From NCBI RefSeq assembly GCF_000970305.1, contig NZ_CP009517.1, positions 1,116,001 through 1,180,000 on the forward strand: a DNA stretch of 64,000 bases. Direction: 5' to 3'. The notes under the pieces were generated by a model. It had not been told where the DNA came from and made no database searches. It was given only the letters and a program-made list of their open reading frames with translations. This DNA is from Methanosarcina barkeri 3 (GTDB lineage: Archaea; Halobacteriota; Methanosarcinia; Methanosarcinales; Methanosarcinaceae). The position numbers and the translations under genes are program-made. Below are positions 26,065 through 59,778 of this stretch, piece by piece; within the stretch, counting starts at the first letter, position 1, and each line of letters begins with the position of its first letter.

Positions 26065-26454
26065 TTATTCATCCCACGGCTCAATCCCTTTTTTCTTTAG
26101 ATAATCATTAATTGCCTCATGTATTGCTTCTTCTGCCAGCATTGAACAGTGCATTTTTATCGGAGGAAGTCCGTCAAGAGCTTCTGCAACAGCTTTATTT
26201 GAAAGTTTCCAGGCCTCTTCCAGGGTTTTTCCCTTAATCATTTCAGTTGCCATACTGCTTGATGCAATTGCAGCTCCGCACCCGAAGGTTTGAAACTTAA
26301 CGTCTGAAATCCTATCATTCTCAACCTTGAGGTAGATTTTCATTATATCTCCGCACTTCGCATTTCCAACCTCTCCTACACCGTCACTGTCCTCAATACT
26401 CCCCATGTTTCTCGGATTTGAAAAATGATCCATTACTTTAAGGCTGTAGTCCAT
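26065..26454 (-). CDS. iscU: Iron-sulfur cluster scaffold IscU/NifU N-terminal type
   Basis: A 129-residue scaffold protein. The three cluster-ligand cysteines are visible in NAKCGD (residue 34), TFGCGAA (about 60) and MHCSMLA (about 102), with the adjacent aspartate. It assembles [2Fe-2S]/[4Fe-4S] clusters with sulfur from IscS. It lies 136 bases downstream of iscS and is followed by the E1-like gene, apparently in one operon. It lacks the LPPVK motif used by HscA; the corresponding stretch is LPPIK, close but changed. Confidence 0.95.
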   Translation of the reverse strand: MDYSLKVMDHFSNPRNMGSIEDSDGVGEVGNAKCGDIMKIYLKVENDRISDVKFQTFGCGAAIASSSMATEMIKGKTLEEAWKLSNKAVAEALDGLPPIKMHCSMLAEEAIHEAINDYLKKKGIEPWDE

Positions 26455-26589
26455 GAACGGTCCTCCAATGCTACTTCTCCAATTATATCTCAGTTTTTAT
26501 ATCTCAGTTTTCAGTCACTCAAAAATATTCAATAGTAATAAAACTTTTAAAACGACATCAGTTAATCCAATCTCGTAAACAGTTGCCCC

Positions 26590-27774
26590 TCAAATAGTCC
26601 TGTAATCTTTGGGGGTAAGTGGGGACATGTTTCTTAGCTTCTGCACGATCTCAGGCACAGCCTCAAGTACCCTGTCCACATCCTTTTCTGAATTCATCCT
26701 TCCGAGGCTAAGCCTCAGTGACCCGTGAACGATTTCGTGCGGGACTCCGCAAGCCGTAAGCACATGTGAAGGTTCGAGAGAAGAAGAGTTACATGCACTC
26801 CCAGTAGACGCAAAAATTCCTTTTGCGTTCAATAACAGCAAAAGTGATTCACCCTCTATGTATTCGAACGTAACATTTACGTTATTTGCAAGCCTCTCTA
26901 TGGGATGCCCGTTGAGGTGAGCTTTCGGGATTTTCAAAAAACCTTCAATAAGGCGCTCTTTCAACTCAAGCAGAATTTTATTTGATTCTTCAATTTCGGC
27001 TGTTGCAAGCTCTATGGCTTTTCCAAGGCCTACAATAGCAGGGACATTTTCAGTTCCGGCTCTTCGCTTTCTTTCCTGAGCCCCGCCGTGAAGAAGAGTA
27101 TCGATTTTTGTCCCTTTTCGAATGTAGAGGGCTCCGCAGCCTTTTGGGCCTTCGAATTTATGACCTGAAAGTGACAGAAGGTCAATATTCATTTTATTGA
27201 CATCGATAGGAATATGGCCTATTGCCTGCACGGCATCCGTATGGAAATAGATTCGGTTCTCTTTAGCGATTTTTCCTATTTCCTCTACAGGCTGGATTGT
27301 CCCTATTTCGTTGTTTGCAAGCATTATGGAAATAAGGATGGTATCGTCTCGAATCGCCTTCTTCACTTCCTCAGGGGATACCATTCCGTATTTGTCTACA
27401 GGCAGGTATGTTACCTCAAAGCCCTGCCCTTCCAGCCAGGCACAGGTGTGCAGGACTGCATGGTGCTCGATAGAAGAGGTGATTATGTGTTTTCCTTTAC
27501 TCCGGTTTGCAAAGGCTATTCCCTTGATTGCCCAGTTATCGGATTCAGTGCCTCCTGATGTGAAATAAATCTCGTTTTCTTCAGCCCCGAGAGCATTGGC
27601 AACCTTTTTTCTCGCTTTGTCTATTGCGTGTTTTGAGATTTTTCCGATCTCATAAATCGAAGAAGGGTTTCCGAAATTCTCAGTCATGTAAGGAAGCATC
27701 TCTTCGACAACTTCTTTTCTTACAGGAGTTGTAGCTGAGTTGTCCATGTAAATGGTCTTTTTTTCAGTGGTCAC
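26590..27774 (-). CDS. iscS: Cysteine desulfurase IscS/NifS
   Basis: A PLP enzyme that removes sulfur from cysteine for Fe-S clusters and thiolation. The PLP lysine is in SGHKFEGPKG and the catalytic cysteine in STGSACNSSS, both intact. I place the start at GTG 27774 (MTTEKKTIYMDNSATTP), with AAGGTG five bases upstream; the frame is open to a TTG at 27810, but that would put the operator inside the gene. Two copies of the CAATTG-centred palindrome lie at 27784-27797 and 27804-27817, between the start and a TATA-like box, suggesting repression. First gene of iscS-iscU-E1. Confidence 0.95.
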   Translation of the reverse strand: MTTEKKTIYMDNSATTPVRKEVVEEMLPYMTENFGNPSSIYEIGKISKHAIDKARKKVANALGAEENEIYFTSGGTESDNWAIKGIAFANRSKGKHIITSSIEHHAVLHTCAWLEGQGFEVTYLPVDKYGMVSPEEVKKAIRDDTILISIMLANNEIGTIQPVEEIGKIAKENRIYFHTDAVQAIGHIPIDVNKMNIDLLSLSGHKFEGPKGCGALYIRKGTKIDTLLHGGAQERKRRAGTENVPAIVGLGKAIELATAEIEESNKILLELKERLIEGFLKIPKAHLNGHPIERLANNVNVTFEYIEGESLLLLLNAKGIFASTGSACNSSSLEPSHVLTACGVPHEIVHGSLRLSLGRMNSEKDVDRVLEAVPEIVQKLRNMSPLTPKDYRTI

Positions 27775-27783
27775 ACTCACACC

Positions 27784-27817
27784 TTCACAATCGTGAATAA
27801 CCAATAACAATTGTGAA
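27784..27817 (-). promoter_or_regulatory. iscS promoter with two operator palindromes
   Basis: TTCACAATCGTGAA (27784-27797, one mismatch to the palindrome) and ATAACAATTGTGAA (27804-27817, one good half) are 20 bases apart centre to centre. The second abuts a minus-strand TATA-like box (TATATAAG complement, about 27817-27825). Binding here would block TFB/RNA polymerase. Confidence 0.7.
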
Positions 27818-28115
27818 TATATAAGTTTTATCGTAAGATACCAGGAAAAAATTATAGATATACAGGAAGAGTCAAGGAACCTATAATATAGACAGGAGGA
27901 ATCCAGGAGCTTACAGACAGGAGTAATCCAGGAGCCTACAGACAGGAGAAACCCTGGAATCCTTTCAGAAACTCTTTTGAATTGTTTCAGAAACTTTTTA
28001 AATTGTTAAAAATCAAGCCATTTTTCTCTGAGCTTTATTTCTCATAGAGCTGTCTGAGGATCTCATTATTGTTTTTTCCAATGATAACAATTTATATGTA
28101 TGCCAGACATATTCG

Positions 28116-28129
28116 TTTTCAATTGTGAA
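28116..28129 (+). promoter_or_regulatory. Partial operator upstream of the HTH regulator
   Basis: TTTTCAATTGTGAA keeps one perfect half of the palindrome and lies 16 bases after a TATA-like TTTATATGTA (28091-28100), 40 bases before the regulator's start. This fits autoregulation. Confidence 0.5.
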
Positions 28130-28168
28130 ATTTCAAAAATTGTAATATCTTAATAAGTGATGGTAATT

Positions 28169-28525
28169 ATGGAAACTCCGTGTCAGAAGATTGTGTGGGA
28201 TCTGGTCCCCGCAATAAGGGCCAGTCTTGCAATCGAACTCGTAAAAAAAGGACAGTCACAGGCAGCATCTGCAAAGTTGCTGGAGATTGCCCCATCGGCA
28301 GTTTCCCAGTATATTTCGGGAAAAAGAGGATACAGAATCGAGTTTCAGGGCGAAACTAAAGAATTGATTGAAAAGCTTGCTCAGGACCTGATTGAGAACA
28401 GAGTTGATGACTTTGTAGCGAGAATCTGTGAGATCTGTGTAAGTGCCAGAGGAATTGAAAATAGGTGCAATAACGGTTGCGGTCAGGAAGAACATGCAGA
28501 GGATGAAACAGAAGATAAAACTTGA
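28169..28525 (+). CDS. HTH transcriptional regulator with cysteine cluster (COG2522-like)
   Basis: A 118-residue protein. C5 is near the N-terminus (METPCQKIVW, then LVPAIRASLA). A helix-turn-helix spans about residues 33-54 (AKLLEIAPSAVSQYISGKRG), and the C-terminal part has C87-x2-C90 and C100-x3-C104. This is the layout of archaeal COG2522 predicted regulators, in which the cysteines may hold an Fe-S cluster or zinc (inference). It sits beside iscS, is divergent from it, and has a partial operator in front. It is the best candidate for the factor that reads the TTCACAATTGTGAA sites. ATG 28160 is an alternative start. Confidence 0.8.
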   Translation: METPCQKIVWDLVPAIRASLAIELVKKGQSQAASAKLLEIAPSAVSQYISGKRGYRIEFQGETKELIEKLAQDLIENRVDDFVARICEICVSARGIENRCNNGCGQEEHAEDETEDKT

Positions 28526-28801
28526 AGGTAAAACAGTAGGTAAAACTTGAAGGTAAAGTTGAAGATATAGAAAAATCAGAAGTATAAAGTCGGACTTTAC
28601 CAGGTAATGTATTGATTTTAGAGCTTTTTTATTGTTTTTCGGTCTTTTTACTGTTTTTAGGTCCTTTTATTGATTTTCCAATCCCTTAATGTTTTTCCAG
28701 TTCTTCATTATTTTTTACATCCTGCTGTCTGATTCTTTTTGTTCTTATATACGGTTTTTAGTATAGAAATTTCTCGATAACTATATTAAACATAAAATTG
28801 A

Positions 28802-28815
28802 TTCACAATTGTGAA
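28802..28815 (+). promoter_or_regulatory. Perfect operator palindrome between convergent genes
   Basis: TTCACAATTGTGAA, exact, 12-14 bases after CTATATTAAA (28781-28790), a TATA-like box. No protein gene starts downstream on the + strand; the LarE-like gene ends at 29063 from the other side. It suggests a short transcript of its own. Confidence 0.65.
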
Positions 28816-29927: not shown

Positions 29928-29941
29928 TTCACAATTGTGAA
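29928..29941 (-). promoter_or_regulatory. Perfect operator in the LarE-like promoter
   Basis: TTCACAATTGTGAA, exact, directly next to a minus-strand TATA-like TTTTAAAAC (about 29943-29951) and 68 bases before the start at 29860. It is also between this gene and the divergent carrier gene at 30052. Confidence 0.7.
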
Positions 29942-36040: not shown

Positions 36041-36118
36041 TTCAGGCACTTTTTGCCGTAAAAAAGGGATTTTTATACTAACAATGAGTATTATAGATTG
36101 TCAGTTCACAATTGTGAA
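36041..36118 (+). promoter_or_regulatory. Promoter-operator module (tRNA-Cys type), copy without intact tRNA
   Basis: GGCACTTTTTGCC, a TATA-like TTTATACT (36072-36079) and, 26 bases later, an exact TTCACAATTGTGAA (36105-36118). A very similar block is at 50154-50231. Functional tRNA-Cys genes at 47727 and 51712 have the same spacing. Here only a decayed tRNA-like sequence follows. Confidence 0.65.
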
Positions 36119-36175: not shown

Positions 36176-37285
36176 CCTGAAAATTTGGAGATTAAACATT
36201 CGGAGAGGCTGTCTAAGAGTTTTCTGAAGATACAAAGAAAACTGAATCCACGAGAGGTAAAAAAATAAAGGAGGTGATACTCACCTTTGAAAAGAGGTTC
36301 AAATCTAGGTAGATGTACAGCAAATTGTTAACCTGAAAGCTTTAAGGGCTGCAAGAGTAGTTTAACAATTTCTGAACTTGCTTAGCTAAATATGGAAACC
36401 TCAGTTGCTAAAAAATACACAAAATCGTTTGCATAACCCACAACATATTAACATAAAATTCCAGTATGTCAAACAGACATAACATCATTTATACAATCCA
36501 CATCCACAGAAATTCACAAAAATAATATCAATTTTCATATTTCTTAAACAACAAAGAAAGAATTATACCGTTCTTTATTAGAAAATACTAGTACATAGAT
36601 TCCAAAATAAACTCTTTGTTTAACAGAAATTCGTTAATCAATAGATCTATTCAAAGGTCAGGTTTGTGACACACTTTGGAATCGCAGTGCTAGATAAATC
36701 GGAATAGATACTATAATAGTGAATTTTTGCTGGGTGTTGAGTATAAATTGAAGACTCAAAAAGTAAAAAACTTGAGAGGAATGCTGAGATGACGAAAAGG
36801 CTACGCAGTGGACTGCAGATCCATTTATACCGGCTGAGTTCGGGTCTTAGCTTAGAGATTCTTCTGCAGAGATAAGAGATTAAAGGGACACTTAGATTCG
36901 AACCAGAATAAAAAGACTGTGCTGCTATATGATAGTTCTTGGCTTTTTTAAGAATTTCTTCATAGCTGAGCAATTATATACCTGATTTTTTTCTCTTCTT
37001 AGTCCATTTTCGGGGCTCACGCTAAAAATCCAAGCTTCAGTGCCTGAAATTTTTCTCCTGTTAATATAATCCCTTTCCTAATGTTGCTTGGCTCTTCTTC
37101 AATCATTTCTGGGAAAAATGCGCAAAAATAAGTTAAAACTGCGCAAATAGGAAAGCTTATGAGAACTCATGATGACTTCATTGCTTTTTTAGTGTTTATG
37201 TTCTGCAGGCATTTTAGTAACACCGTTAACAATATAACTTTGTAAATCTAATTAACTGTTAGATAAGAACCAAAGTTCAGCTCAA
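36176..37285. other. Gene-poor gap around the degenerate tRNA-Cys
   Basis: Apart from the tRNA pseudogene I see no supportable gene. AAAGGAGGTGA-TAC-TCACCTTT (about 36268-36290) is an inverted repeat, followed by a T-arm-like GAGGTTCAAATCTAGG; this may be another tRNA remnant. A hydrophobic minus-strand frame (36647-36973) lies across the tRNA and is rejected. Confidence 0.35.
36783..36852 (+). pseudogene. Degenerate tRNA-Cys (GCA)
   Basis: Acceptor GCTGAGA/TCTTAGC, D arm, anticodon stem GTGGA/TCCAT and loop CTGCAGA with anticodon GCA are good, and U73 follows. The T arm is damaged: the expected GGTTCGATTCC is GGCTGAGTTCG, one base short and without the conserved TTC, so the B box is lost. 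There is no operator in front. Likely inactive. Confidence 0.65.
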
Positions 37286-40807: not shown

Positions 40808-40821
40808 TTCACAATTGTGAA
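40808..40821 (-). promoter_or_regulatory. Perfect operator, tRNA-type promoter on the minus strand
   Basis: TTCACAATTGTGAA, exact, 26 bases downstream of a minus-strand TATA box (TTTAAATATT, complement of about 40848-40857). This is the same spacing as in front of the tRNA-Cys genes. GCATTTTGCC lies upstream as in the related module at 51630. Confidence 0.7.
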
Positions 40822-46112: not shown

Positions 46113-46126
46113 TACACAATTGTGAT
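46113..46126 (-). promoter_or_regulatory. Operator at the start of the marker 16 operon
   Basis: TACACAATTGTGAT has the perfect core CACAATTGTG. It lies 10 bases downstream of a minus-strand TATA box (AACTTATAA, about 46137-46146) and directly before ATG 46111, so it covers the transcription start. Confidence 0.7.
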
Positions 46127-46355: not shown

Positions 46356-47348
46356 TTAAATGTCTTTATGAGGTGTTAGGTCACAGCCAGTACACAGCAA
46401 ACACATTGTTCGCGATTTATCGACACAGAGCGACTCATGGTCAAGCATGTCCTTCAACATACTTCCCAGTTTTAAAAGCCGTGCAGAATCTGGCCTGGTG
46501 ATCTTTACATTTTTCCTGAGAGGATGGGGAGAAATTGGTCTGAGAATTGGAATTATACAACGGTTTGTAAGGAGTTTGATACCCTTTCGGACGGTTTCGT
46601 CACTTTCCCCAAGACCAATTATGAAGTTCGAAGAGACCCGGTTTTTGCCGAAAACATTCACTGCGGTGTCGAGAGCATCAAGAATTGTGTAAAGCGAGAG
46701 GTCCGGACAGAAACGGCGGAAAAGCTCGGGGTCCATAGTTTCCACGTTGTATTTTATCTCGCATGCGCCTGCAGAATAAAGTTCTTCTGACGAACCTGTC
46801 GTGGGATAGACAGAGACGCCTATTGGGAGATCGTACTCACTTGTAAGCTGTTTTATGATACTTACCGCTCTCTGGACTTCTTTCTTTGGCGAAACAGCTA
46901 TACCGCTGGTGAAGGAAATTGCCTTTAGTTCGCCTGTTGCATAAGCTTCCTCAACCATTTGTATAACCTTTGCACTGTCCTTTACCCCACCATGCATTTT
47001 CGGTACCGGACAAAATTGGCAATCGTATACACATTTTTCAGATAATGTAATGTATGCCTGTTCCGGACAGTGACAAAGCGGACGTTCAAGTACTCCCCTG
47101 GCAACTACGTCATCGTTTTTAAGAACTACCACATGCTCATCTTCAGGCACTACACGCAAAGGAGACGCATCATTGATTGTAAGCCTCACTCTCTGGTTTC
47201 CAGACTTCAGAAAAATTGAGGAGCCTCCTGCTCCGGGTCCGGCTGTAGCCTTGCTCTCAAGCTTATCAGGGAGAAGGGATTTATCGACCTGAGCACTCCC
47301 TATGCTCAAAAGAGCTGCCTTAATATCTGTGTTCAGTTCTTTGTCCAT
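46356..47348 (-). CDS. Radical SAM enzyme of unknown reaction
   Basis: A 330-residue protein from ATG 47348. The radical SAM cluster motif is C106-VYD-C110-QF-C113. N-terminal residues 1-95 form an extra domain (KSGNQRVRLTINDASPLRVVPEDE), and the C-terminus has CLLCTGC, which may bind a second [4Fe-4S] cluster. GxGE-like IGLGESDE is present. Such two-cluster enzymes often insert sulfur or make cofactors. Three operator-like palindromes in its promoter link it to the sulfur genes; it is upstream of the marker 16 operon on the same strand. Confidence 0.82.
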   Translation of the reverse strand: MDKELNTDIKAALLSIGSAQVDKSLLPDKLESKATAGPGAGGSSIFLKSGNQRVRLTINDASPLRVVPEDEHVVVLKNDDVVARGVLERPLCHCPEQAYITLSEKCVYDCQFCPVPKMHGGVKDSAKVIQMVEEAYATGELKAISFTSGIAVSPKKEVQRAVSIIKQLTSEYDLPIGVSVYPTTGSSEELYSAGACEIKYNVETMDPELFRRFCPDLSLYTILDALDTAVNVFGKNRVSSNFIIGLGESDETVRKGIKLLTNRCIIPILRPISPHPLRKNVKITRPDSARLLKLGSMLKDMLDHESLCVDKSRTMCLLCTGCDLTPHKDI

Positions 47349-47419
47349 AATCATACACTTCAGAAAGTAAATCATTAAGTATATTTACTCAGTACAGTTA
47401 CTATGTATCAATGATAGTG

Positions 47420-47480
47420 TTTACAATTGTAAACTAAATTAAGTAACAATTGTGAACAACTCAATATTAACAATTGTGAA
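47420..47480 (-). promoter_or_regulatory. Three operator-like palindromes in the radical SAM promoter
   Basis: TTTACAATTGTAAA (47420-47433, a perfect palindrome with TA in place of CG pairs), GTAACAATTGTGAA (47443-47456) and TTAACAATTGTGAA (47467-47480). Centres are 23-24 bases apart, about two helical turns, which suits cooperative binding of dimers. Confidence 0.65.
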
Positions 47481-47668: not shown

Positions 47669-47719
47669 GTTTAAATATCAGAAACAATTAGTATAATACC
47701 ACATATTCACGATTGTGAA
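47669..47719 (+). promoter_or_regulatory. tRNA-Cys promoter with operator
   Basis: TATA box TTTAAATATC (47669-47678); 27 bases later TTCACGATTGTGAA (47706-47719, one mismatch), ending seven bases before the mature tRNA. The operator thus covers the expected start of transcription. Confidence 0.7.
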
Positions 47720-47726
47720 TTGCTGT

Positions 47727-47798
47727 GTCAGGGTGGTGGAAAGGCTACGCAGTGGCCTGCAGATCCATTTTGTCCTGGTTCGATTCCGGGCTCTGGCT
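47727..47798 (+). tRNA. tRNA-Cys (GCA)
   Basis: GTCAGGG pairs with CTCTGGC (with G-U pairs), D stem GTG/CGC, anticodon loop CTGCAGA with GCA, T arm CCTGG-TTCGATT-CCGGG, discriminator T as usual for tRNA-Cys. The anticodon stem GTGGC/TCCAT has a C-U mismatch at 31-39. CCA is not encoded. It is probably functional but less regular than the copy at 52171. Confidence 0.8.
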
Positions 47799-48155: not shown

Positions 48156-49151
48156 ATGACTAATATTGAAGTTAGAGAATTAGTGCCGTCCGAATATAGA
48201 GAATGGGACTTGCTTGTAAAAGAAGCTAAACCTGGTACACTCTTTCATACGAGTGACTGGCTGGAAACTTATAGAAATGTTCTTTCAAAGGATCTTAGGA
48301 TTTACGGTTGTTTCAGAAACGATGAGCTTGTAGGTGGATGCCCTCTTTTTGTAAGGAACTTCAAGGGAATCCTTAAAATGGCATCTTCAATCAGTAATAT
48401 GATTGATTACTGTGGCCCTCTTGTAAAAGAAAGTTCCAATACCAAAGCAAGTAAAAGAGTACAGGAAACTCACGAAATATTTGACGCACTCAGGAAATTT
48501 CTGTGCAGACAGGATTTTGATAGTATTCACCTGAGACTCTCTCCGGGAATCGAGGATATTAGACCGTTTACCTGGAATGGATGGGACTCAAAGGTTCATT
48601 ATACCCATCACCTGGATCTGAAGGAAAATGTGGATAATAATATCTCAAGGACAATAAGGAAGGATCTCAAGTCTGTATTAAAGGCAGGACTTGAAACAAA
48701 GATATTGAATGATCTTGAAACTTATTATAGTCTGCTTTCCAAAACATATGAGAGGCAGAATCTCAAACCACCGTTACCCAAAAAAATTTTCGAAAAGATT
48801 TTTGACCTTATTCGGGAAAAAGATATCGGTTATATGCTTGTATCCGAAACTCCAGAAGGAGAAGCCGTTGCAGCACATTTGACTCTTTACGGAAAAGAAA
48901 GTACGATTGGTTGGTCTTCTGTCCGTAATCCGTCTTTTAATCTGAGAGGATCAAATGCTCTTCTTTACTATAATGAGTTTCTCGACCTGCAGTCCAGGAA
49001 TTTCGAATATATGAATGTTATGGCAGGAAACATTCCCAAATTTGCGGATTATATTAAAGGCTTTTCTCCCAAACTCGTTCCTTATTACAGTGTGACATTA
49101 GAGAATAAGAGGTATTCAATTCTCAAGGCTTTACACAAAATAGTGGCCTGA
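48156..49151 (+). CDS. GNAT/FemAB-like acetyl- or aminoacyl-transferase
   Basis: A 331-residue protein with the layout of two GNAT-fold halves: residues 1-100 (DWLETYRNVLSKDLRIYGCFRNDELVGGCPLFVR) and 150-330 (YMLVSETPEGEAVAAHLTLYGKESTIGWSS, then NALLYYNEFLDLQSR). It resembles the FemAB/CelD group often found with exopolysaccharide genes; those use aminoacyl-tRNA or acyl-CoA donors. Its substrate is unknown. Position beside tRNA-Cys may be incidental. It has an AT-rich upstream region without an operator. Confidence 0.7.
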   Translation: MTNIEVRELVPSEYREWDLLVKEAKPGTLFHTSDWLETYRNVLSKDLRIYGCFRNDELVGGCPLFVRNFKGILKMASSISNMIDYCGPLVKESSNTKASKRVQETHEIFDALRKFLCRQDFDSIHLRLSPGIEDIRPFTWNGWDSKVHYTHHLDLKENVDNNISRTIRKDLKSVLKAGLETKILNDLETYYSLLSKTYERQNLKPPLPKKIFEKIFDLIREKDIGYMLVSETPEGEAVAAHLTLYGKESTIGWSSVRNPSFNLRGSNALLYYNEFLDLQSRNFEYMNVMAGNIPKFADYIKGFSPKLVPYYSVTLENKRYSILKALHKIVA

Positions 49152-49885: not shown

Positions 49886-50061
49886 AAGAGTAATCTTGAG
49901 AACAATCTTGAGAATGATTTTGAGAACAATCTTGAGAACAATCTTGAGAACAATCTTGAGAACAATCTTGAGAACAATCTTGAGAACAATCTTGAGAACA
50001 ATCTTGAGAACAATCTTGAGAACAATCTTGAGAACAATCTTGAGAACAATCTTGAGAACGA
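49886..50061. repeat. 12-bp minisatellite (TTGAGAACAATC)n
   Basis: About 14 uninterrupted or near-perfect units of TTGAGAACAATC. Because 12 is divisible by three it opens long artificial frames on both strands. It lies between the NifX-like gene and a promoter-operator module. No function evident; copy number is likely variable. Confidence 0.9.
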
Positions 50062-50153: not shown

Positions 50154-50231
50154 TTCAGGCACTTTTTGCCTTAAAAAAGAAATTTAAGTATTAATAATGA
50201 ATAGGATGTTTTGTCAGTTCACATATGTGAT
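50154..50231 (+). promoter_or_regulatory. Promoter-operator module (tRNA-Cys type), variant core
   Basis: GGCACTTTTTGCC, TATA-like TTTAAGTATT (about 50183-50192), and 26 bases later TTCACATATGTGAT (50218-50231), whose centre is ATAT instead of AATT. It is about 75% identical to the module at 36041. No tRNA follows; the next gene is at 50314. Confidence 0.55.
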
Positions 50232-50313: not shown

Positions 50314-50790
50314 ATGAAAGGAGAGATCGTTGACGGAGCAAAGAATTCTGCCCTCGATCCGAATGAAAATATTGTTGAAGGAGTATGGAGAGAGCTTGGC
50401 GATGAGCTTACAGTTGAAATATTATGGGAAGCTCTTGATCTAACTGGGTTCTATATTCTCCTGCATACGGTATATCATATACTTCTTGCAGTAGAGTATG
50501 TATCTCTTGAAGTTAGAACCAGCCCTTTTAATCTGATTGAACAGAGTATCGCTCAAAATGAGAAAGATCTTCTTGAAGAAGGAAAATCCCGACTGTGGCA
50601 GATATTCAATAAATATCACATCTCAGAAACGGGGATTTCAATAAAAGGGATCAAAATGCGCAGACTGCTACGAACAGAAAATAAAAGGGATATAGGGTTA
50701 TATGGGAACTTTGTCACAGAATCCAATAATACATTAACTCATCCTCTATTTCCATATATAACCGAAACCTTAACTTCTTCATACTGTTGA
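50314..50790 (+). CDS. Hypothetical protein behind an operator module
   Basis: A 158-residue protein with a hydrophobic stretch near residues 45-66 (LTGFYILLHTVYHILLAVEYVSL) and a charged second half. No family recognised. ATG 50314 has weak ribosome-binding support (AAAG); a 13-codon frame MNSTRLKYERRDR from 50292 has a better site (GAAGGT) and overlaps it. The only promoter visible is the variant operator module 80-160 bases upstream. It could be a genuine lineage-specific gene or a patched remnant. Confidence 0.4.
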   Translation: MKGEIVDGAKNSALDPNENIVEGVWRELGDELTVEILWEALDLTGFYILLHTVYHILLAVEYVSLEVRTSPFNLIEQSIAQNEKDLLEEGKSRLWQIFNKYHISETGISIKGIKMRRLLRTENKRDIGLYGNFVTESNNTLTHPLFPYITETLTSSYC

Positions 50791-50829: not shown

Positions 50830-51465
50830 TTATGATATTTGCTGTAGCTTATTAGGTTTCCTGGCTATAATGGTTCTTACTGCGTGCTGGTGGGGAATAT
50901 TGCTTGATTTACAATCAAATATAAACTCATTAGAATAAAGCAATTCCCAATCTTTATAATAGCTTTGGAGTTCCTGATTCTCATAAAGGTATTCATTTTT
51001 ACCCCAATCAGGGGCAATCTTAACATCTGGATGTTCAACAAATGTGCACATTACATTAATGCCACCAGTCTCAGTATTATTTTTTATGTTCTCAAACTGG
51101 CGTTTTCTATTTTCCGGTCTAATGTATTGCAAAGTTCCAATGGAATAAACAATGTCAAACATTTTTGATAAAACAATCTCGTTTATGTCTGCTTCCATAG
51201 TTTCGATAGTTGTGCCGTTTTCTCTGGCTAATTTGACCGCCTTTTCTAAACCTGCCGGTGCAATTTCGACAGCCAAAACATTAAGACCTTGTAGAGCAAA
51301 GAAAACACTGTCTCTGCCTTCTCCTGCACCCATATCAACCAGTTTTTTATTGGTTATTTGGTCATCTGGAATAAACTCTAAAACCTTGTTCACCAACTCA
51401 TTAGGTTCTTTACCCCAATAGTAATCGGGTTTTAAATAAATTTCTTGCAACTGCTCTTTGTCCAT
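50830..51465 (-). CDS. SAM-dependent methyltransferase (TehB/class I type)
   Basis: A 211-residue cytoplasmic methyltransferase. Motif I is LVDMGAGEGRDSVFFA (about residues 43-58), followed by VLAVEIAPAGLEKA and DIVYSIGTLQYI. The arrangement YYWGKEPNELVNKVLE at the N-terminus is that of the TehB/thiopurine-like group, which methylate oxyanions or thiols. The substrate is unknown. It is divergent from the tRNA-Cys at 51712 with its start 230 bases away. Confidence 0.82.
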   Translation of the reverse strand: MDKEQLQEIYLKPDYYWGKEPNELVNKVLEFIPDDQITNKKLVDMGAGEGRDSVFFALQGLNVLAVEIAPAGLEKAVKLARENGTTIETMEADINEIVLSKMFDIVYSIGTLQYIRPENRKRQFENIKNNTETGGINVMCTFVEHPDVKIAPDWGKNEYLYENQELQSYYKDWELLYSNEFIFDCKSSNIPHQHAVRTIIARKPNKLQQIS

Positions 51466-51655
51466 TATTCACATTACCGTTTTTTTAAATATTATAGCTT
51501 TGCTGTTGCCTTTAAAAAATTTGTTAACTATTTATAGATAATATTCAGTAATTTACCGTGTCCGAAAGTTCTCTATCGATACGAGCAGAAAGCTTTTGAA
51601 GAAAAATCTCAGTTTCTCTTTTCCGTAAAAGGCATGTTTTGCCTCAAAAAACAGG

Positions 51656-51704
51656 TTTAAATATTAAAAACGAGTATGATGTGTTGTCAATTCACAATTG
51701 TGAA
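51656..51704 (+). promoter_or_regulatory. tRNA-Cys promoter with perfect operator
   Basis: TATA box TTTAAATATT (51656-51665), 25 bases later exact TTCACAATTGTGAA (51691-51704), ending seven bases before the tRNA. Upstream AAGGCATGTTTTGCCT is an imperfect palindrome as in the related modules. Confidence 0.75.
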
Positions 51705-51711
51705 TACCAGT

Positions 51712-51782
51712 GCCAGGGTGGCAGAAAGGCTACGCAATGGACTGCAGATCCATTTATCCCGGTTCGATTCCAGGTTCTGTCT
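51712..51782 (+). tRNA. tRNA-Cys (GCA)
   Basis: Acceptor GCCAGGG/TTCTGTC (one mismatch, two G-U pairs), D arm, perfect anticodon stem ATGGA/TCCAT with loop CTGCAGA (GCA), T arm CCCGG-TTCGATT-CCAGG with one mismatch, U73. It retains the B box GGTTCGATTCC. The mismatches suggest relaxed selection or a special role, but the molecule should fold. Confidence 0.72.
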
Positions 51783-51898: not shown

Positions 51899-51920
51899 AA
51901 GCTTCACAATTGTGAAGCTT
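51899..51920. promoter_or_regulatory. Extended 22-base perfect palindrome containing the operator
   Basis: The exact operator core (51903-51916) is flanked by AAGC and GCTT, so the perfect palindrome is 22 bases, the longest in the window. It lies between two tRNA-Cys genes, 250 bases before the SepCysS-linked one. No TATA box at the usual distance is evident. Confidence 0.6.
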
Positions 51921-52170: not shown

Positions 52171-52242
52171 GCTGAGATGGCGGAAAGGCTACGCGATGGA
52201 TTGCAACTCCATTATATCCCGGTTCGATTCCGGGTCTTAGCT
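52171..52242 (+). tRNA. tRNA-Cys (GCA), leader of the SepCysS gene
   Basis: The most regular copy: acceptor GCTGAGA/TCTTAGC, D stem GCG/CGC, anticodon stem ATGGA/TCCAT, loop TTGCAAC (GCA), T arm CCCGG-TTCGATT-CCGGG without mismatch, U73. SepCysS begins at 52255, only 12 bases after the tRNA, so both must be on one transcript that is cut to release the tRNA. Confidence 0.93.
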
Positions 52243-52254
52243 TAGGGGTAGTAT

Positions 52255-53637
52255 ATGGACATAAGAACACAAAAAACATTTGAGGCACTTTTTGCCCTTG
52301 AAGATATTAGGGAGACTCTTAGACAAAGGCTTCCGAATATCACAAGTCCAGAAGAAGAAAACACCATTAAAGAAAGTGTAAACAGAGTCAGAAAAATTCT
52401 GGACGATATCGAAAACTATACCGGAACCCCGGAAGTAAGGAAAATAGCTGATAATATTGACATCAGGTCCAGAGAAGAAACAAATATCAACATACAGCCA
52501 ATCCAGGCAGCAGGGAGGCTTACACCCGAAGCACGAAAAGCTCTCATAGCATATGGTGACGGCTATTCCACCTGTGATGCCTGCCGCAAACCTTTCAGGC
52601 TTGATAAAATAAGCAGTCCGCCTGTTGCTCCATTTCATGAACAGCTCGCAAGTTTCGTTAACATGGATGTGGCTAGAGTAGTACCAGGCGCAAGGAGAGG
52701 GTTCCAGGCGGTGGCTTCTACCTTGGTCAATAAAGGTGATTCCGTAATAGTTTCAGCTCTTGCCCATTATACCGAATTTCTTGCAGTAGAAGGAGCAGGA
52801 GGAATAGTTAGAGAAGTACCCTTAAATGAGCACAATCTTGTAACTGCAGATGCTACTGCTGAGAAAATTGAAGCGGTTAAACAGGAAACAGGCAAATCAC
52901 CGGTACTGGTAATGATTGACCACTTTGATTACCAGTACGCAAATGAGCATGATGTAAAAGGCATTGCAAAAGTTGCTCATCAGTATGACATTCCTTTCCT
53001 GTATAACGGAGCATATACTGTTGGTGTCAGGCCGGTTGATGGAAAAAGTATCGGTGCGGATTTTGTTGTAGGTTCAGGCCATAAAAGTATGGCATCTCCT
53101 GCACCTTCAGGGATACTGGCAACAACTGAGGAGTGGGCTCCGAAGATATTCCGTACGACTCAGATGACCGGTGATCTAACCAAACGCAAATTTGGGGTAA
53201 AGGAAGTAGAGATGCTTGGCTGCACACTGATGGGTTCAACACTGCTGGGTATGATGGCTTCATTCCCTACGGTTAAGGAGAGAGTAAATAACTGGGAAAA
53301 CGAGCTGAAAAAATCGAATTATCTGATCGATGGCCTGCTTGCTATCGAAGGCAGTAAAATCGTCTCAGAATATCCACGCAAACATACCCTTTCCAAAGTT
53401 GACACTATCAAGAGCTTCGATCTTATAGCACAGGAACATAAACGCAGAGGTTTCTTCCTTTCGGACGAACTTTCAAGCAAGGGCATTGTCGGAGAATTTG
53501 CAGGGGCCACACGCGTATGGAAACTTAATACATACGGGCTTTCATGGGATAAGGTTCGCTATGTGGTAGATACGTTTCAGGAAATCGCTGAAAAATACAA
53601 CATTCATGTAAACAGAGAGGAAAATTCCAATGACTAA
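52255..53637 (+). CDS. pscS: Sep-tRNA:Cys-tRNA synthase (SepCysS)
   Basis: A 460-residue PLP enzyme that converts O-phosphoseryl-tRNA-Cys to cysteinyl-tRNA-Cys, the second step of tRNA-dependent cysteine synthesis after SepRS. The PLP lysine is in [14 protein letters not shown]. The cysteines needed for catalysis are in [11 protein letters not shown] and LGCTLMG. It is longer than the shortest family members because of an N-terminal extension of about 75 residues ([18 protein letters not shown]). AGGGG before ATG 52255 lies right behind the tRNA. Overlaps the next gene by eight bases. Source of sulfide or persulfide may be the local IscS/ThiI-type proteins. Confidence 0.94.
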
Positions 53638-54922
53638 TAACTACAAATTAGGAACACTTGCCCTTCACGCTGGACAGGTCCCAGATCCAACAACAGGAGC
53701 ACGTGTTGTACCGATATATCAGACAACATCGTATGTTTTCAAGGATACCGATCATGCAGCTAATCTTTTTGGCATCAAAGAGCTGGGTAATATCTACACC
53801 CGAATAATGAATCCCACTACTGATGTTTTCGAACAACGCATAGCTGCCATTGAGGGTGGGACCGGAGCTCTCGGAGTCTCATCCGGTTCAGCAGCAATAG
53901 CTTATGCCCTATTAGCTATTACAAGAGTAGGAGACGAAATTGTATCCGGAAATAATCTTTACGGCGGAACCTATGAACTTTTTAATTACACTTTTCCCAA
54001 ATTTGGAAGAAAAGTGATATTCGTAGACTCAACGGATCTAGAAGCTTACCGGAAAGCTATAAATGAGAAAACCAGAGCTGTTTATATCGAGTCATTGGGT
54101 AACCCGAAACTTGATGTTCCGGATTTTGAGGCAATCGCAGAGATTGCTCATGAAGCCGGGATCCCACTTGTAGTAGACAACACAAGTGCTGTTGGGCTTG
54201 TTAGACCTATTGAACATGGCGCTGATATCGTTGTGCATTCGGCAACCAAATTCATTGGCGGACACGGAAACTCAATTGCCGGTTCTATAGTAGATTCCGG
54301 AAAATTCTCCTGGAATAACGGTAAGTTTCCGGAATTCACAGACCCTGATCCGGAGTATCACGGCCTGAAATACTGGGATACATTTTCAGCCTTTCCCGGA
54401 CTTGGAAATGTTGCATTAGTCTTTAAGATAAGGCTACAGCTTCTTCGAGATATAGGTGCAGCTATTTCACCTTTTAATTCATTCCTGTTGCTTCAGGGAC
54501 TTGAAACCCTGCATCTGAGAATACAGAGGCACTCGGAGAATGCCCTCAAGGTGGCAGAATATCTTTCTAATCATCCGAAAGTCTTGTGGGTTAATTATCC
54601 CGGTTTACCGGATCATCCAAGCCACGAACTTGCATCCAGGTATCTCAAAGGTGGTTATGGTGCACTGATAGGTTTCGGCGTGAAAGGTGGCGTTGAAGAA
54701 GGTAAAAAATTTATTAACTCTGTGAAACTGCTTTCACACGTTGCGAATATAGGAGATTCTAAAAGCCTCGTAATCCATCCGGCAACTACCACACACCAAC
54801 AATTAACCCCGACCGAACAGGAAGCGAATGGAGTCACGCCGGATTACATACGCCTTTCCGTAGGCACTGAGGATATAGAAGATATAATCTCGGATATAGA
54901 GCAGGCTCTTGAGCAAGTGTAA
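53630..54922 (+). CDS. metY: O-acetylhomoserine sulfhydrylase (MetY-like, Cys/Met PLP enzyme)
   Basis: A 430-residue PLP enzyme of the cystathionine gamma-synthase family. The PLP lysine is in [13 protein letters not shown], and the N-terminus [31 protein letters not shown] is that of O-acetylhomoserine (thiol)-lyases; the length above 420 with the PEYHGLKY insert supports this over cystathionine lyase. It makes homocysteine from O-acetylhomoserine and sulfide, or methionine with methanethiol. It overlaps SepCysS by eight bases and so is translated with it from the same transcript as tRNA-Cys. Confidence 0.9.
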
Positions 54923-56868: not shown

Positions 56869-58221
56869 TCACAAAGGCCCTGCATACTTACTCATAACGT
56901 CTTCCATTAGAGTAAGCCCTCCGCTGAACCCTGCGTAACTTCGCTCAAGTATTATGCGGTCGTATGACGGGAATGAAACCGTCAGATGTATGGCATTAAA
57001 TTCCGGGCCTGATATGAAAGTTTCAAGAGAACTTGCAAGCAGAAACATGAAATTCCTGTCTTTTAAATTTTCCCGAATCCTGTATGCATCCACTTCATAT
57101 ATTATTTCAGGCCAGGCAGGGGTTTCAAGTCCAGTTGTCAGTTCCTCATTTATCAGTTCACGGGCTTCTTCAGGTGGATTATCCGTTATCTGGACAATGT
57201 CTGGCAGATATCCCATTTCATTTGCAAGATATTTTGTAATGCTTACAGCTGAATTACTGTCTGCTACCACTGCAAAGTAAGGATGTGGCCTGGCGATTAA
57301 AAGTACATCCCCAACATATTCTGCAAACCTGTAAGCTCTTCTTTCCTCACTGGAGATCAGATATTCAATGACATCGGCTGAAACATCTAACCTTTCTCCT
57401 ATAACCCTCAGGAATTCCGATGTTTGCTTTGGCCCTATCGGTACCCCTGGGAAAGAGATGTAAGGAGTATCGAATTTTCCTTCGAGTTTCTTTGCAGTTT
57501 CATGCCCGACCCAGCTTGAAAGGACAATATTATATTCAGCTGCCGGAATTTTTTTCAGGTTCTCAAGCGCGTCAAATTCTCCTACGATTAGATTTGCTTT
57601 CAAGCCTATTTTTTCAAGCAGAGTTTTTATCGTCCTTGCTTCTCCCTTCCAGAATATGTGCTGGAAAGGAACTATTCCAAATACGTTTACCAGTCCTTTT
57701 TCTTTTGGAACTTTTTCTTCAAGGAGCTGGTCGATTACAGAGTCGAAAAAGTATTCGTAGCCTTCGTAGGAAGTTCCTGCAAACCCTGAGGTGTTTACAT
57801 GTATGATCGGAATCTCAGGGTTCTTTTCTTTATACCTTCTGATAACCGCCCCCACGTCGTCTCCTATGAGTGAGGGAACACAACCAGAGATGACTGCAAA
57901 TAACTCTCCGTTTACAAGTTCTACCGTTGACTCAATAAGACTTTCAAGTTTTTTTTCGCCGCCGAAAATTACATGCTCCTCAACTAAAGAGGAACAGGGA
58001 GTGCTCGTTCCTCCATAAGGCCCTCCTGCATTCTGGCCCCCACCGTAAAATTGGCCAAAAAGCTGCCCGATTCCACATCCTGCTCCCGAATGGAGTATGG
58101 GGACAACTCCAAATATACCTACTGCTGTTGAATAAGCCCCTGCGAGTGCGCAGGAGTAACGTGGTGCTTCAATAGCACCTGATATAACATTATTTGTCTC
58201 TAAAGGTTCACTTATTCCCAT
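56869..58221 (-). CDS. Nitrogenase-like component 1, K-type subunit
   Basis: A 450-residue protein of the NifK/NifN/BchB family. Cysteines C24 (RYSCALAG), C49 (GAGCGIG) and C114 (SGCVPSLIGDD) correspond to the three P-cluster ligands. STPCSSLVEEHVIFGGEKKL is typical of the nitrogenase-like branches rather than true NifK. It starts 12 bases after the D-type gene, with GGAG from that gene's end as ribosome-binding site. It should form an alpha2beta2 enzyme with the D subunit. No NifH, NifB or NifEN is nearby. Confidence 0.88.
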   Translation of the reverse strand: MGISEPLETNNVISGAIEAPRYSCALAGAYSTAVGIFGVVPILHSGAGCGIGQLFGQFYGGGQNAGGPYGGTSTPCSSLVEEHVIFGGEKKLESLIESTVELVNGELFAVISGCVPSLIGDDVGAVIRRYKEKNPEIPIIHVNTSGFAGTSYEGYEYFFDSVIDQLLEEKVPKEKGLVNVFGIVPFQHIFWKGEARTIKTLLEKIGLKANLIVGEFDALENLKKIPAAEYNIVLSSWVGHETAKKLEGKFDTPYISFPGVPIGPKQTSEFLRVIGERLDVSADVIEYLISSEERRAYRFAEYVGDVLLIARPHPYFAVVADSNSAVSITKYLANEMGYLPDIVQITDNPPEEARELINEELTTGLETPAWPEIIYEVDAYRIRENLKDRNFMFLLASSLETFISGPEFNAIHLTVSFPSYDRIILERSYAGFSGGLTLMEDVMSKYAGPL

Positions 58222-58233
58222 AATTACACCTAT

Positions 58234-59778
58234 TTACTCCTCTGCTTTCAGATAGTACAGAGAATTTGGCTGTTTATACCACCAGTCTTTATACGTACTC
58301 TGCGTTTTTTCTTTCATTGTCCGCTGGTATGAATGGCTTTTCAATGACTGCAAAAGGAAGTTTCCGAATGCAATCGCTCCCGTATAGCCGCTCTGGGCAC
58401 TCCAGGGGTGGGCATCGGACCTCAAGGCATGTACTCTTGTTACACCCTTGTCACGCTTGAATGCGCCTCCTTGGAACGGGCAGGTCATTGCGATATCGGG
58501 ATCTCTCTGGTTTGTTATATGTGTCTGTTCTGCAGCCTGGAAGGTATTTACCAGAATGTCAAAGTCCCCCATCTGCGCGATTAATTTTTCGAGGTCCTTG
58601 AGTATGAGGTTGTCAAAGTCCTGGCACATTGCAGCTGATGATTTAAGTCCGAGTTCGTCAAAGTATGGGACCTGAGCCAGAAGTCTTCCCTGCCCAAGTG
58701 CACCCAGCACTTCTACTTTCTCTCCATTGCCTTTGAAGTTTTCAAATTCCTGCCTGATTGCCTTCAGTTTAGGCAGCCATTTTTCGTGTTCTTCTTTGAT
58801 CAGGGCTTCTATTTCCCTTTCTTTTCCGGTATGCCTCCCGATTTCCCTTAGCCACTCGTCTGTGTGGGCAACTCCCATTGGGGAAGGATAGAGGAAATAA
58901 GGAATTCCGTATTCCTGCTTAAGCCCGCGGGCCAGATAGTCAGTATAGGTCGGGCACAGGGGTGCAGTAACTGCAGCTTCGGAAAGTTGTTCAAACTGCT
59001 CCACAGATGCAAATTCAGGAACGAAGTTAACTCTGAGACCGACTTTTCCCAGCAGGCGTTTTATTTCCAGCCTGTCCTGCCAGGTGTAAGAGAGCATGCT
59101 TGCTACATTTACCAGGTCTTTCTGTTTCTTTTCCGGCTTTTTGACAAGGTATTTCAGGACTGCATGCCAGAAAGCGTCATAACCTGTCTGGACGAGTCTT
59201 GAGCGTGAGCCTTCACAATGAATCGGGACTATTGTTGCTTTTATTTCGGGCTGGACCTGTGAGACAGTCCCTTCTATGTCCTCTCCTATTATTCCTGAAG
59301 TACAGGACGTAAGTACAAAGATTGCTTTTGGATTATACCGTCTCTCAGCTTCTTTTATAGCTTCCCTGAGCTTTTCGCCGGCACCGTAGACCACATCTCT
59401 TTCCCTGAGGTTTGTTGTCATCCAGTGAAGGTCAAAATTTGCAGGGCGGCCAAGTTCAACAGGTATATGCCTGTAGAGTTCACGGTAACCAAGTGCTGCG
59501 GACGAGCAGCCGACAGGTGCATGATATATAGCTACGGCGTCACGGATTGTTCCGATCCTTACTGAAAGATAGAAGTTCAGAACACAACCGCTTGACTGCT
59601 GAAAATTCCGTTCTCTTTGCCTCAGGCAGCCGGAACGGGCTTCTTTTGCAAGGTCACTTGCCTTTCCATACCAGACGTTGATACCGTTTGCCCTCTGTTC
59701 CCTGTTGGGACATGTATTCCGTGATAGGTCGATTCTTTCCTCGATCAGTTCATTTTCAGTAAGTTCTGTTCCTGACAT
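58234..59778 (-). CDS. Nitrogenase-like component 1, D-type subunit
   Basis: A 514-residue protein of the NifD family. C65, C91 and C159 match the P-cluster ligands. C275 (APLCPTYTDYLARGLKQEYGIPY) and H457 (AHPWSAQSGYTG) align with the two residues that hold FeMo-cofactor in NifD (Cys275 and His442), so a metal cofactor is likely, unlike in BchN or CfbD. The sequence around QRANGINVWYGKASDLAKEARSGC resembles methylthio-alkane reductase and other group IV nitrogenase-like proteins. With MetY nearby, release of methanethiol or sulfide from organosulfur compounds is a reasonable idea. It needs a reductase encoded elsewhere. Confidence 0.88.
   Translation of the reverse strand: MSGTELTENELIEERIDLSRNTCPNREQRANGINVWYGKASDLAKEARSGCLRQRERNFQQSSGCVLNFYLSVRIGTIRDAVAIYHAPVGCSSAALGYRELYRHIPVELGRPANFDLHWMTTNLRERDVVYGAGEKLREAIKEAERRYNPKAIFVLTSCTSGIIGEDIEGTVSQVQPEIKATIVPIHCEGSRSRLVQTGYDAFWHAVLKYLVKKPEKKQKDLVNVASMLSYTWQDRLEIKRLLGKVGLRVNFVPEFASVEQFEQLSEAAVTAPLCPTYTDYLARGLKQEYGIPYFLYPSPMGVAHTDEWLREIGRHTGKEREIEALIKEEHEKWLPKLKAIRQEFENFKGNGEKVEVLGALGQGRLLAQVPYFDELGLKSSAAMCQDFDNLILKDLEKLIAQMGDFDILVNTFQAAEQTHITNQRDPDIAMTCPFQGGAFKRDKGVTRVHALRSDAHPWSAQSGYTGAIAFGNFLLQSLKSHSYQRTMKEKTQSTYKDWWYKQPNSLYYLKAEE

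Follow-up and report, generated by a model that had tools for sequence, protein, structure and literature searches.

Why would a tRNA gene carry what looks like a regulatory site across its transcription start? The question was raised by a tRNA-Cys gene in a 64,000-nucleotide stretch of the Methanosarcina barkeri 3 genome (contig NZ_CP009517.1, positions 1,116,001 to 1,180,000; hereafter the window), where a first-pass annotation had described a TATA box, a perfect palindrome and the tRNA in series and had proposed a deliberate block of initiation. The host genome (G000) is a single contig of 4.56 Mb whose gene content is characteristic of Methanosarcina, and coordinates are those of the window unless genome coordinates are stated. 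On re-reading the sequence, the positions annotated for this module (51656-51782) were correct, as were the 26 bases from the TATA box to the palindrome at 51690 and the 7-base gap between palindrome core and tRNA at both 51712 and 47727. Archaeal transcription usually starts about 23 bases past the TATA box, here near 51686-51690, so that the palindrome would cover or immediately follow the start. From the sequence comparisons below, we consider it likely that the palindrome serves as operator in a sulfur, cysteine and iron-sulfur (Fe-S) regulon under the control of a helix-turn-helix protein encoded at 28157-28525 (Table 1).

Genomic distribution of the palindrome

The window contained 21 palindrome sites (at most three mismatches) compared with 7.3 +/- 3.1 in shuffled sequence, and across the genome the 14-base core TTCACAATTGTGAA occurred 18 times with no more than one mismatch, its reversed control once. 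Sixteen of the 18 cores fell within two sulfur/Fe-S regions (1.134-1.187 Mb and 1.302-1.306 Mb); of the remaining pair, one was the site of a tRNA-Cys gene at 4.55 Mb. A site was present within 70 bases upstream of four of the eight tRNA-Cys genes in this genome, compared with none of the 48 other tRNA genes (Fisher p 1.9e-4). When 186 genomes of the order were searched for a tRNA-like start lying 4-18 bases past the palindrome, 29 such loci were among the matches listed, in 24 genomes and five genera; the control gave 0, and no match in the 186 genomes lay outside the family. All tRNAs that ARAGORN recognised directly past the palindrome at these loci were tRNA-Cys (locus L088 received no call), and the same arrangement of operator and tRNA-Cys was also found in a Methanomicrobiales contig. 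Judged on sequence, the arrangement is beyond chance.

Conservation of the core across genera was measured on sites picked for that core; the comparison of tRNA-Cys classes was not so picked. Within the genus, the palindrome was found at 0 of 26 copies of the constitutive tandem tRNA-Cys pair (core AATCGCCTGCAGAGCGA) and at 21 of 24 copies of the iscSU-linked tRNA-Cys (core CCGGCTGCAACCCGG), and most module-type tRNA-Cys genes had it 5-11 bases ahead of the tRNA. The complete genomes G064, G072 and G074, which belong to genera g10 and g11, have four or five tRNA-Cys genes each; a single one per genome carried the operator and lay near the regulator gene, and its sister copies were not among the operator-search matches. 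Operator-bearing module tRNAs have G37; the SepCysS2-linked copy at 52171, which itself has no operator closer than 150 bases, has A37. SepRS and a canonical SepCysS are encoded elsewhere in this genome. Passages of PMC8762117 describe M. mazei tRNA-Cys isoacceptors that differ in their use by SepRS and CysRS, which makes a tie between these classes and the tRNA-dependent cysteine route plausible.

State of the tRNA-Cys genes

The tRNAs at 47727, 51712 and 52171 were all identified as tRNA-Cys with a GCA anticodon by ARAGORN and by Rfam RF00005 above the gathering threshold. None of the other tRNAs among the 56 in the genome scored as low as the module tRNAs at genome 4550733 (40.0 bits), 47727 (36.3 bits) and 51712 (35.1 bits), each of which has one or two stem mismatches (acceptor C2:U71 and a T-stem C:A in the case of 51712); operator-bearing tRNA-Cys genes in relatives scored mostly 51-61 bits, with one at 42.6. 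These three tRNAs may be partly decayed, and the product of 51712 may accordingly be poor or dead. The iscSU-linked tRNA-Cys at genome 1306075-1306146 scored 60.6 bits behind a tandem operator and is probably the working regulated tRNA-Cys of this genome.

Gene order behind the operator

In the window, the operator at 51691 is followed by the tRNAs at 51712 and 52171, SepCysS2 at 52255 and an O-acetylhomoserine sulfhydrylase (OAHS) at 53630. SepCysS2 matched TIGR02539 with 404.5 bits (cut-off 365.25); the match begins at residue 70, leaving an N-terminal extension consistent with clade VII. In the second sulfur region, sites lie at cysK-cysE and at a tRNA-Cys gene that is followed by OAHS and metX. 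All 21 operator-bearing iscSU-linked tRNA-Cys genes had OAHS, MetX or SepCysS2 next on the same strand within about 250 bases. SepCysS2 lies 13-72 bases past tRNA-Cys in several other genera, and a Methanomicrobiales locus (L152) has regulator, perfect palindrome, tRNA-Cys, SepCysS2 (15 bases on) and OAHS side by side. In most cases, then, the tRNA comes first in a cysteine/homocysteine operon. The first-pass annotation had spoken of regulated single tRNA genes, a description that suits some which look stand-alone, for example in genus g11, and does not suit the majority, which are the first gene of a SepCysS2/OAHS/MetX operon.

This gene order gives a sizeable minority chance to the alternative that the operator is there for SepCysS2, OAHS and MetX, the protein-coding part of the operon, and that tRNA-Cys is a passenger whose level would vary little, the constitutive copies being dominant. 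Most operator-bearing tRNAs do head such operons, constitutive tRNA-Cys copies are present in complete genomes, and locus L156 has the operator and SepCysS2 with no ARAGORN-recognised tRNA between them. Yet no such protein gene was found downstream of the operator-bearing tRNA-Cys genes of genus g11 (L080-L086), and operator and module tRNA have multiplied without protein genes close behind at L014, L015, L017, L027, L009 and L008.

Further variation was seen around these operons. SepCysS2 was not found beside the tRNA in L024 and is broken in L025; both keep operator, tRNA-Cys and OAHS. Near-identical regulator-iscS-iscU blocks lie at 1143-1147 kb (window 26065-28815) and 1302-1306 kb (L007) of G000, of which only the 1302-1306 kb block includes cysK-cysE, nadA, tRNA-Cys, OAHS and metX. 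A nitrogenase-like NifD/NifE-type gene pair (56869-59778) lies near the sulfur cluster of the window.

Candidate regulator

The proposed regulator has a near-identical copy at genome 1302271-1302633. Three of its cysteines (C5, C87 and C90, numbered from METPCQ) were invariant in 27 regulator sequences, with a fourth in most, and these conserved cysteines could serve as Fe-S ligands. HTH_3, the domain looked for as a mark of XRE/Cro-type regulators, was matched by 27 of 27 members at E <= 0.1 (best 2.3e-6), the window protein scoring below the gathering threshold, and the structural model was helical with a mean predicted local distance difference test (pLDDT) score of 84. No Rrf2 was among the Pfam or NCBIfam families listed for it, a fold search of PDB gave no match at E <= 0.001, and a PDB sequence search pointed to no specific family.

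Of 112 genomes of the family, 79 have a close regulator orthologue, and 43 of these contain the exact palindrome, compared with 1 of the 33 others (p 9e-8, kinship being ignored and related genomes counted as independent). G007, G009 and G023, members of the genus that encode the regulator but lack an exact palindrome, carry one-mismatch sites no more than a few kilobases away from the regulator gene. Of 55 distinct regulator genes, 33 have a core with no more than one mismatch in the 300 bases upstream (9e-5 by shuffles), among them genes on Methanoregula and Methanofollis contigs.

It seems unlikely to us that a DNA-binding protein other than 28157 uses the palindrome. The tie between the two is one of genomic association, and the one genome with palindromes and no close orthologue found (G021) has six of them; that assembly, however, is 75% complete, and both the co-occurrence and the sites upstream of the regulator gene in two orders argue for 28157.

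Operator position and the leader RNA

The first-pass annotation had linked the proposed block to two promoter architectures, with sites near the TATA box at protein genes and sites over the start at tRNA genes. Almost every module promoter in the genus has its core 27 bases past the end of the TATA box. The iscSU-linked tRNA-Cys genes, however, typically carry tandem sites 2 and 22 bases past the TATA box, 20 bases or about two helical turns apart, and SepCysS2 of L156 has the start-site arrangement. A strict two-architecture rule therefore fails. What endures of the proposed block at tRNA-Cys initiation is an operator at the initiation region across genera, common to sulfur and Fe-S genes: with a start about 23 bases past the TATA box, the distal site would lie on or just after it in both the module and iscSU-linked types.

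A palindrome at this position could also act in RNA, as a 5' leader hairpin for processing or attenuation. In Rfam the tRNA family was the sole match in the window, with no T-box or other known RNA regulator at the promoter. The leader can form a 6-base-pair hairpin of -5.1 kcal/mol, but the fold is weak, 12 of 200 shuffles folding equally well, and the palindromes of iscS and of the iscSU-linked tRNA lie directly past the TATA box, ahead of where transcription is expected to begin. On these grounds the hairpin reading is very improbable and was rejected.

Table 1. Features of the tRNA-Cys modules, the candidate regulator and associated palindromes (window coordinates unless marked genome).
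Feature	Position	Strand	Remark
iscS (NifS/IscS-type desulfurase) and iscU (NifU_N)	26065-27810	-	
Two palindromes 20 bases apart in iscS promoter	27784-27817		First directly past TATA box
Palindrome, 2 mismatches, upstream of regulator gene	28116-28129		Similarly placed in relatives, ~20-50 bases before start
Proposed regulator, 122-residue helix-turn-helix protein	28157-28525	+	
Perfect palindrome downstream of regulator	28802-28815		In paralogous block L007, upstream of cysK-cysE
Perfect palindrome between larE (-) and MoaD/ThiS-like gene (+)	29928-29941		
Perfect core, decayed module	36105-36118		tRNA-like remnant after core, another at 36796-36826
Perfect core, decayed module facing - strand	40808-40821		T-arm-like remnant downstream
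Palindrome, 2 mismatches, start of ABC-ATPase gene	46113-46126		HcyBio/methanogenesis marker 16 cluster
Three palindromes, 1-2 mismatches	47420-47480		Upstream of radical SAM gene 46356-47375 (-)
TATA box, second module	47670-47677	+	
Operator core TTCACGATTGTGAA, 1 mismatch, second module	47706-47719		7 bases ahead of tRNA
tRNA-Cys(GCA)	47727-47798	+	Anticodon-stem mismatch, 36.3 bits
Degenerate core TTCACATATGTGAT, 3 mismatches, module without tRNA	50218-50231		Upstream of open reading frame 50314-50790
Inverted repeat GGCA-N5-TGCC	51631-51643, 50158-50170, 36045-36057		Upstream of module TATA boxes
TATA box TTTAAATA	51656-51663	+	Promoter of 51712 tRNA-Cys module
Perfect 16-base palindrome ATTCACAATTGTGAAT, proposed operator	51690-51705		26 bases past TATA box
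14-base palindrome core TTCACAATTGTGAA	51691-51704		tRNA-Cys 51712 begins 7 bases on
tRNA-Cys(GCA), module type, G37	51712-51782	+	ARAGORN, Rfam RF00005
Second perfect palindrome core	51903-51916		Between both tRNA-Cys genes
tRNA-Cys(GCA), A37, intact	52171-52242	+	57.5 bits; directly upstream of SepCysS2
SepCysS paralogue SepCysS2, N-terminal extension	52255-53637	+	TIGR02539 above cut-off
O-acetylhomoserine sulfhydrylase-type enzyme (OAHS)	53630-54922	+	TIGR01326
tRNA-Cys, third module, beyond window	genome 4550733-4550804	-	Core TTCACAGTTGTGAA 7 bases off

Decayed and duplicated modules

The modules at 36105, 40808 (complement) and 50218 have kept the TATA box and lost a recognisable tRNA, with tRNA remnants at the first two. 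That modules have 60 upstream bases in common and keep the core in decayed copies could suggest recent duplication of one promoter-tRNA module with no regulatory meaning, but this barely credible reading is contradicted by the cross-genus data, in which the same core stands at a similar distance behind unrelated upstream sequence in other genera and another order, and by the presence of the core at protein promoters and the regulator gene.

The inverted repeat GGCA-N5-TGCC, found five times in the window compared with 0.39 expected and also present in relatives, is possibly a second regulatory element. Its form GGCACTTTTTGCC occurs also at 52284-52296, close to the beginning of the SepCysS2 frame, where it is perhaps a trace of module origin. 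A TehB-like methyltransferase gene is divergent from the tRNA-Cys module both in the window (50830-51465) and in L008 (3258-3893), the two being 87% identical; its presence at both distant loci suggests that gene and module were probably copied together. A short tandem repeat array with a unit like gaacaatcttga lies between modules at 49889-50061. Downstream of tRNA-Cys 47727, a GNAT/FemAB-like protein (Acetyltransf_6) is encoded at 48156-49151; such folds are able to use aminoacyl-tRNA. Mukai et al. name a small editing-domain gene; the idea that the open reading frame at 50314-50790 is this gene found no support, the frame having no Pfam match.

Proposed mechanism

In the model that we favour, a regulator dimer bound to TTCACAATTGTGAA at or just past the start would block RNA polymerase, repression being suggested by the position of the site; in archaea, downstream sites generally point to repression. 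Low cysteine, sulfide or Fe-S cluster would release the repressor, as the conserved cysteines and the gene content suggest, and iscSU, cysKE and the homocysteine genes would then be made together with extra inducible tRNA-Cys, usually at the head of a tRNA-Cys/SepCysS2/OAHS operon. Constitutive tRNA-Cys copies elsewhere would keep translation going. Judging from gene content, Methanosarcina and related methanogens probably produce extra tRNA-Cys, in most cases along with enzymes that depend on it, only on sulfur demand. A bolder proposal, possible though in our view doubtful, is that the inducible tRNA-Cys pool is treated as a metabolic gene under a new Fe-S/cysteine-sensing repressor and sets the capacity for cysteine synthesis in two orders; tRNA-Cys would then be switched because it is a cofactor for building cysteine via SepRS and SepCysS/SepCysS2.

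Several points weigh against the model of an operator bound by 28157. Neither Pfam nor NCBIfam has a named family that the regulator matches above cut-off, and its link to the palindrome, a predicted target, is one of genomic association. A nearby upstream site is absent from some regulator genes, for example in G070 and G096, and from the Methanospirillum-type and Thermoplasmata homologues. The relatives compared are not independent, so the p-values are overstated. The tRNA first named, at 51712, appears degenerate here, the effector is guessed from gene content, and the protein may activate in place of repressing.

Comparison with known systems

Taken together, the conserved operator, the candidate regulator with its conserved cysteines and the list of associated genes outline a regulon that could be tested directly for a part in the sulfur and Fe-S homeostasis of methanogens. 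The most promising test object is the intact tandem-operator tRNA-Cys beside iscSU, which is present in most relatives. It very likely has the same tandem operator in G001 (locus L045), which we take to be the genetically tractable M. acetivorans C2A and whose orthologue of 28157 lies at 3389051-3389401. Our literature search gave nothing relevant on the palindrome sequence, on regulators of the 28157 kind or on regulated archaeal tRNA genes, and to our knowledge few cases are on record in which a pathway-specific repressor controls an individual tRNA. What sets tRNA-Cys apart is that these archaea can build cysteine on it.

The predicted system resembles the IscR-type repressors of bacterial isc and suf genes in having a cysteine-bearing regulator that adjoins and likely controls iscSU, with several operators, and differs in that 28157 has no Rrf2 match in Pfam and tRNA-Cys belongs to the regulon. 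Archaeal repressors such as the Lrp-type proteins and NrpR block RNA polymerase at the start site. The operator position is alike, either overlapping the start or lying between it and the TATA box, although their known targets are mainly protein operons and here include tRNA-Cys genes. M. mazei reportedly has redundant Cys-tRNA synthesis with several tRNA-Cys isoacceptors, as described by Hauenstein and Perona in 2008. The presence of several tRNA-Cys genes that differ in SepRS and CysRS use, as passages of PMC8762117 describe, is a likeness to that species. In gene content there is a resemblance to the loci of Mukai et al. (2017, mBio, PMC5424206), passages of which associate clade VII SepCysS with tRNA-Cys and sulfur genes. 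The SepCysS2 of the window with its N-terminal extension, the tRNA-Cys and OAHS fit those loci. These passages mention neither a regulator nor an operator nor the layout of promoters, and the present analysis adds a proposed operator and a candidate regulator.
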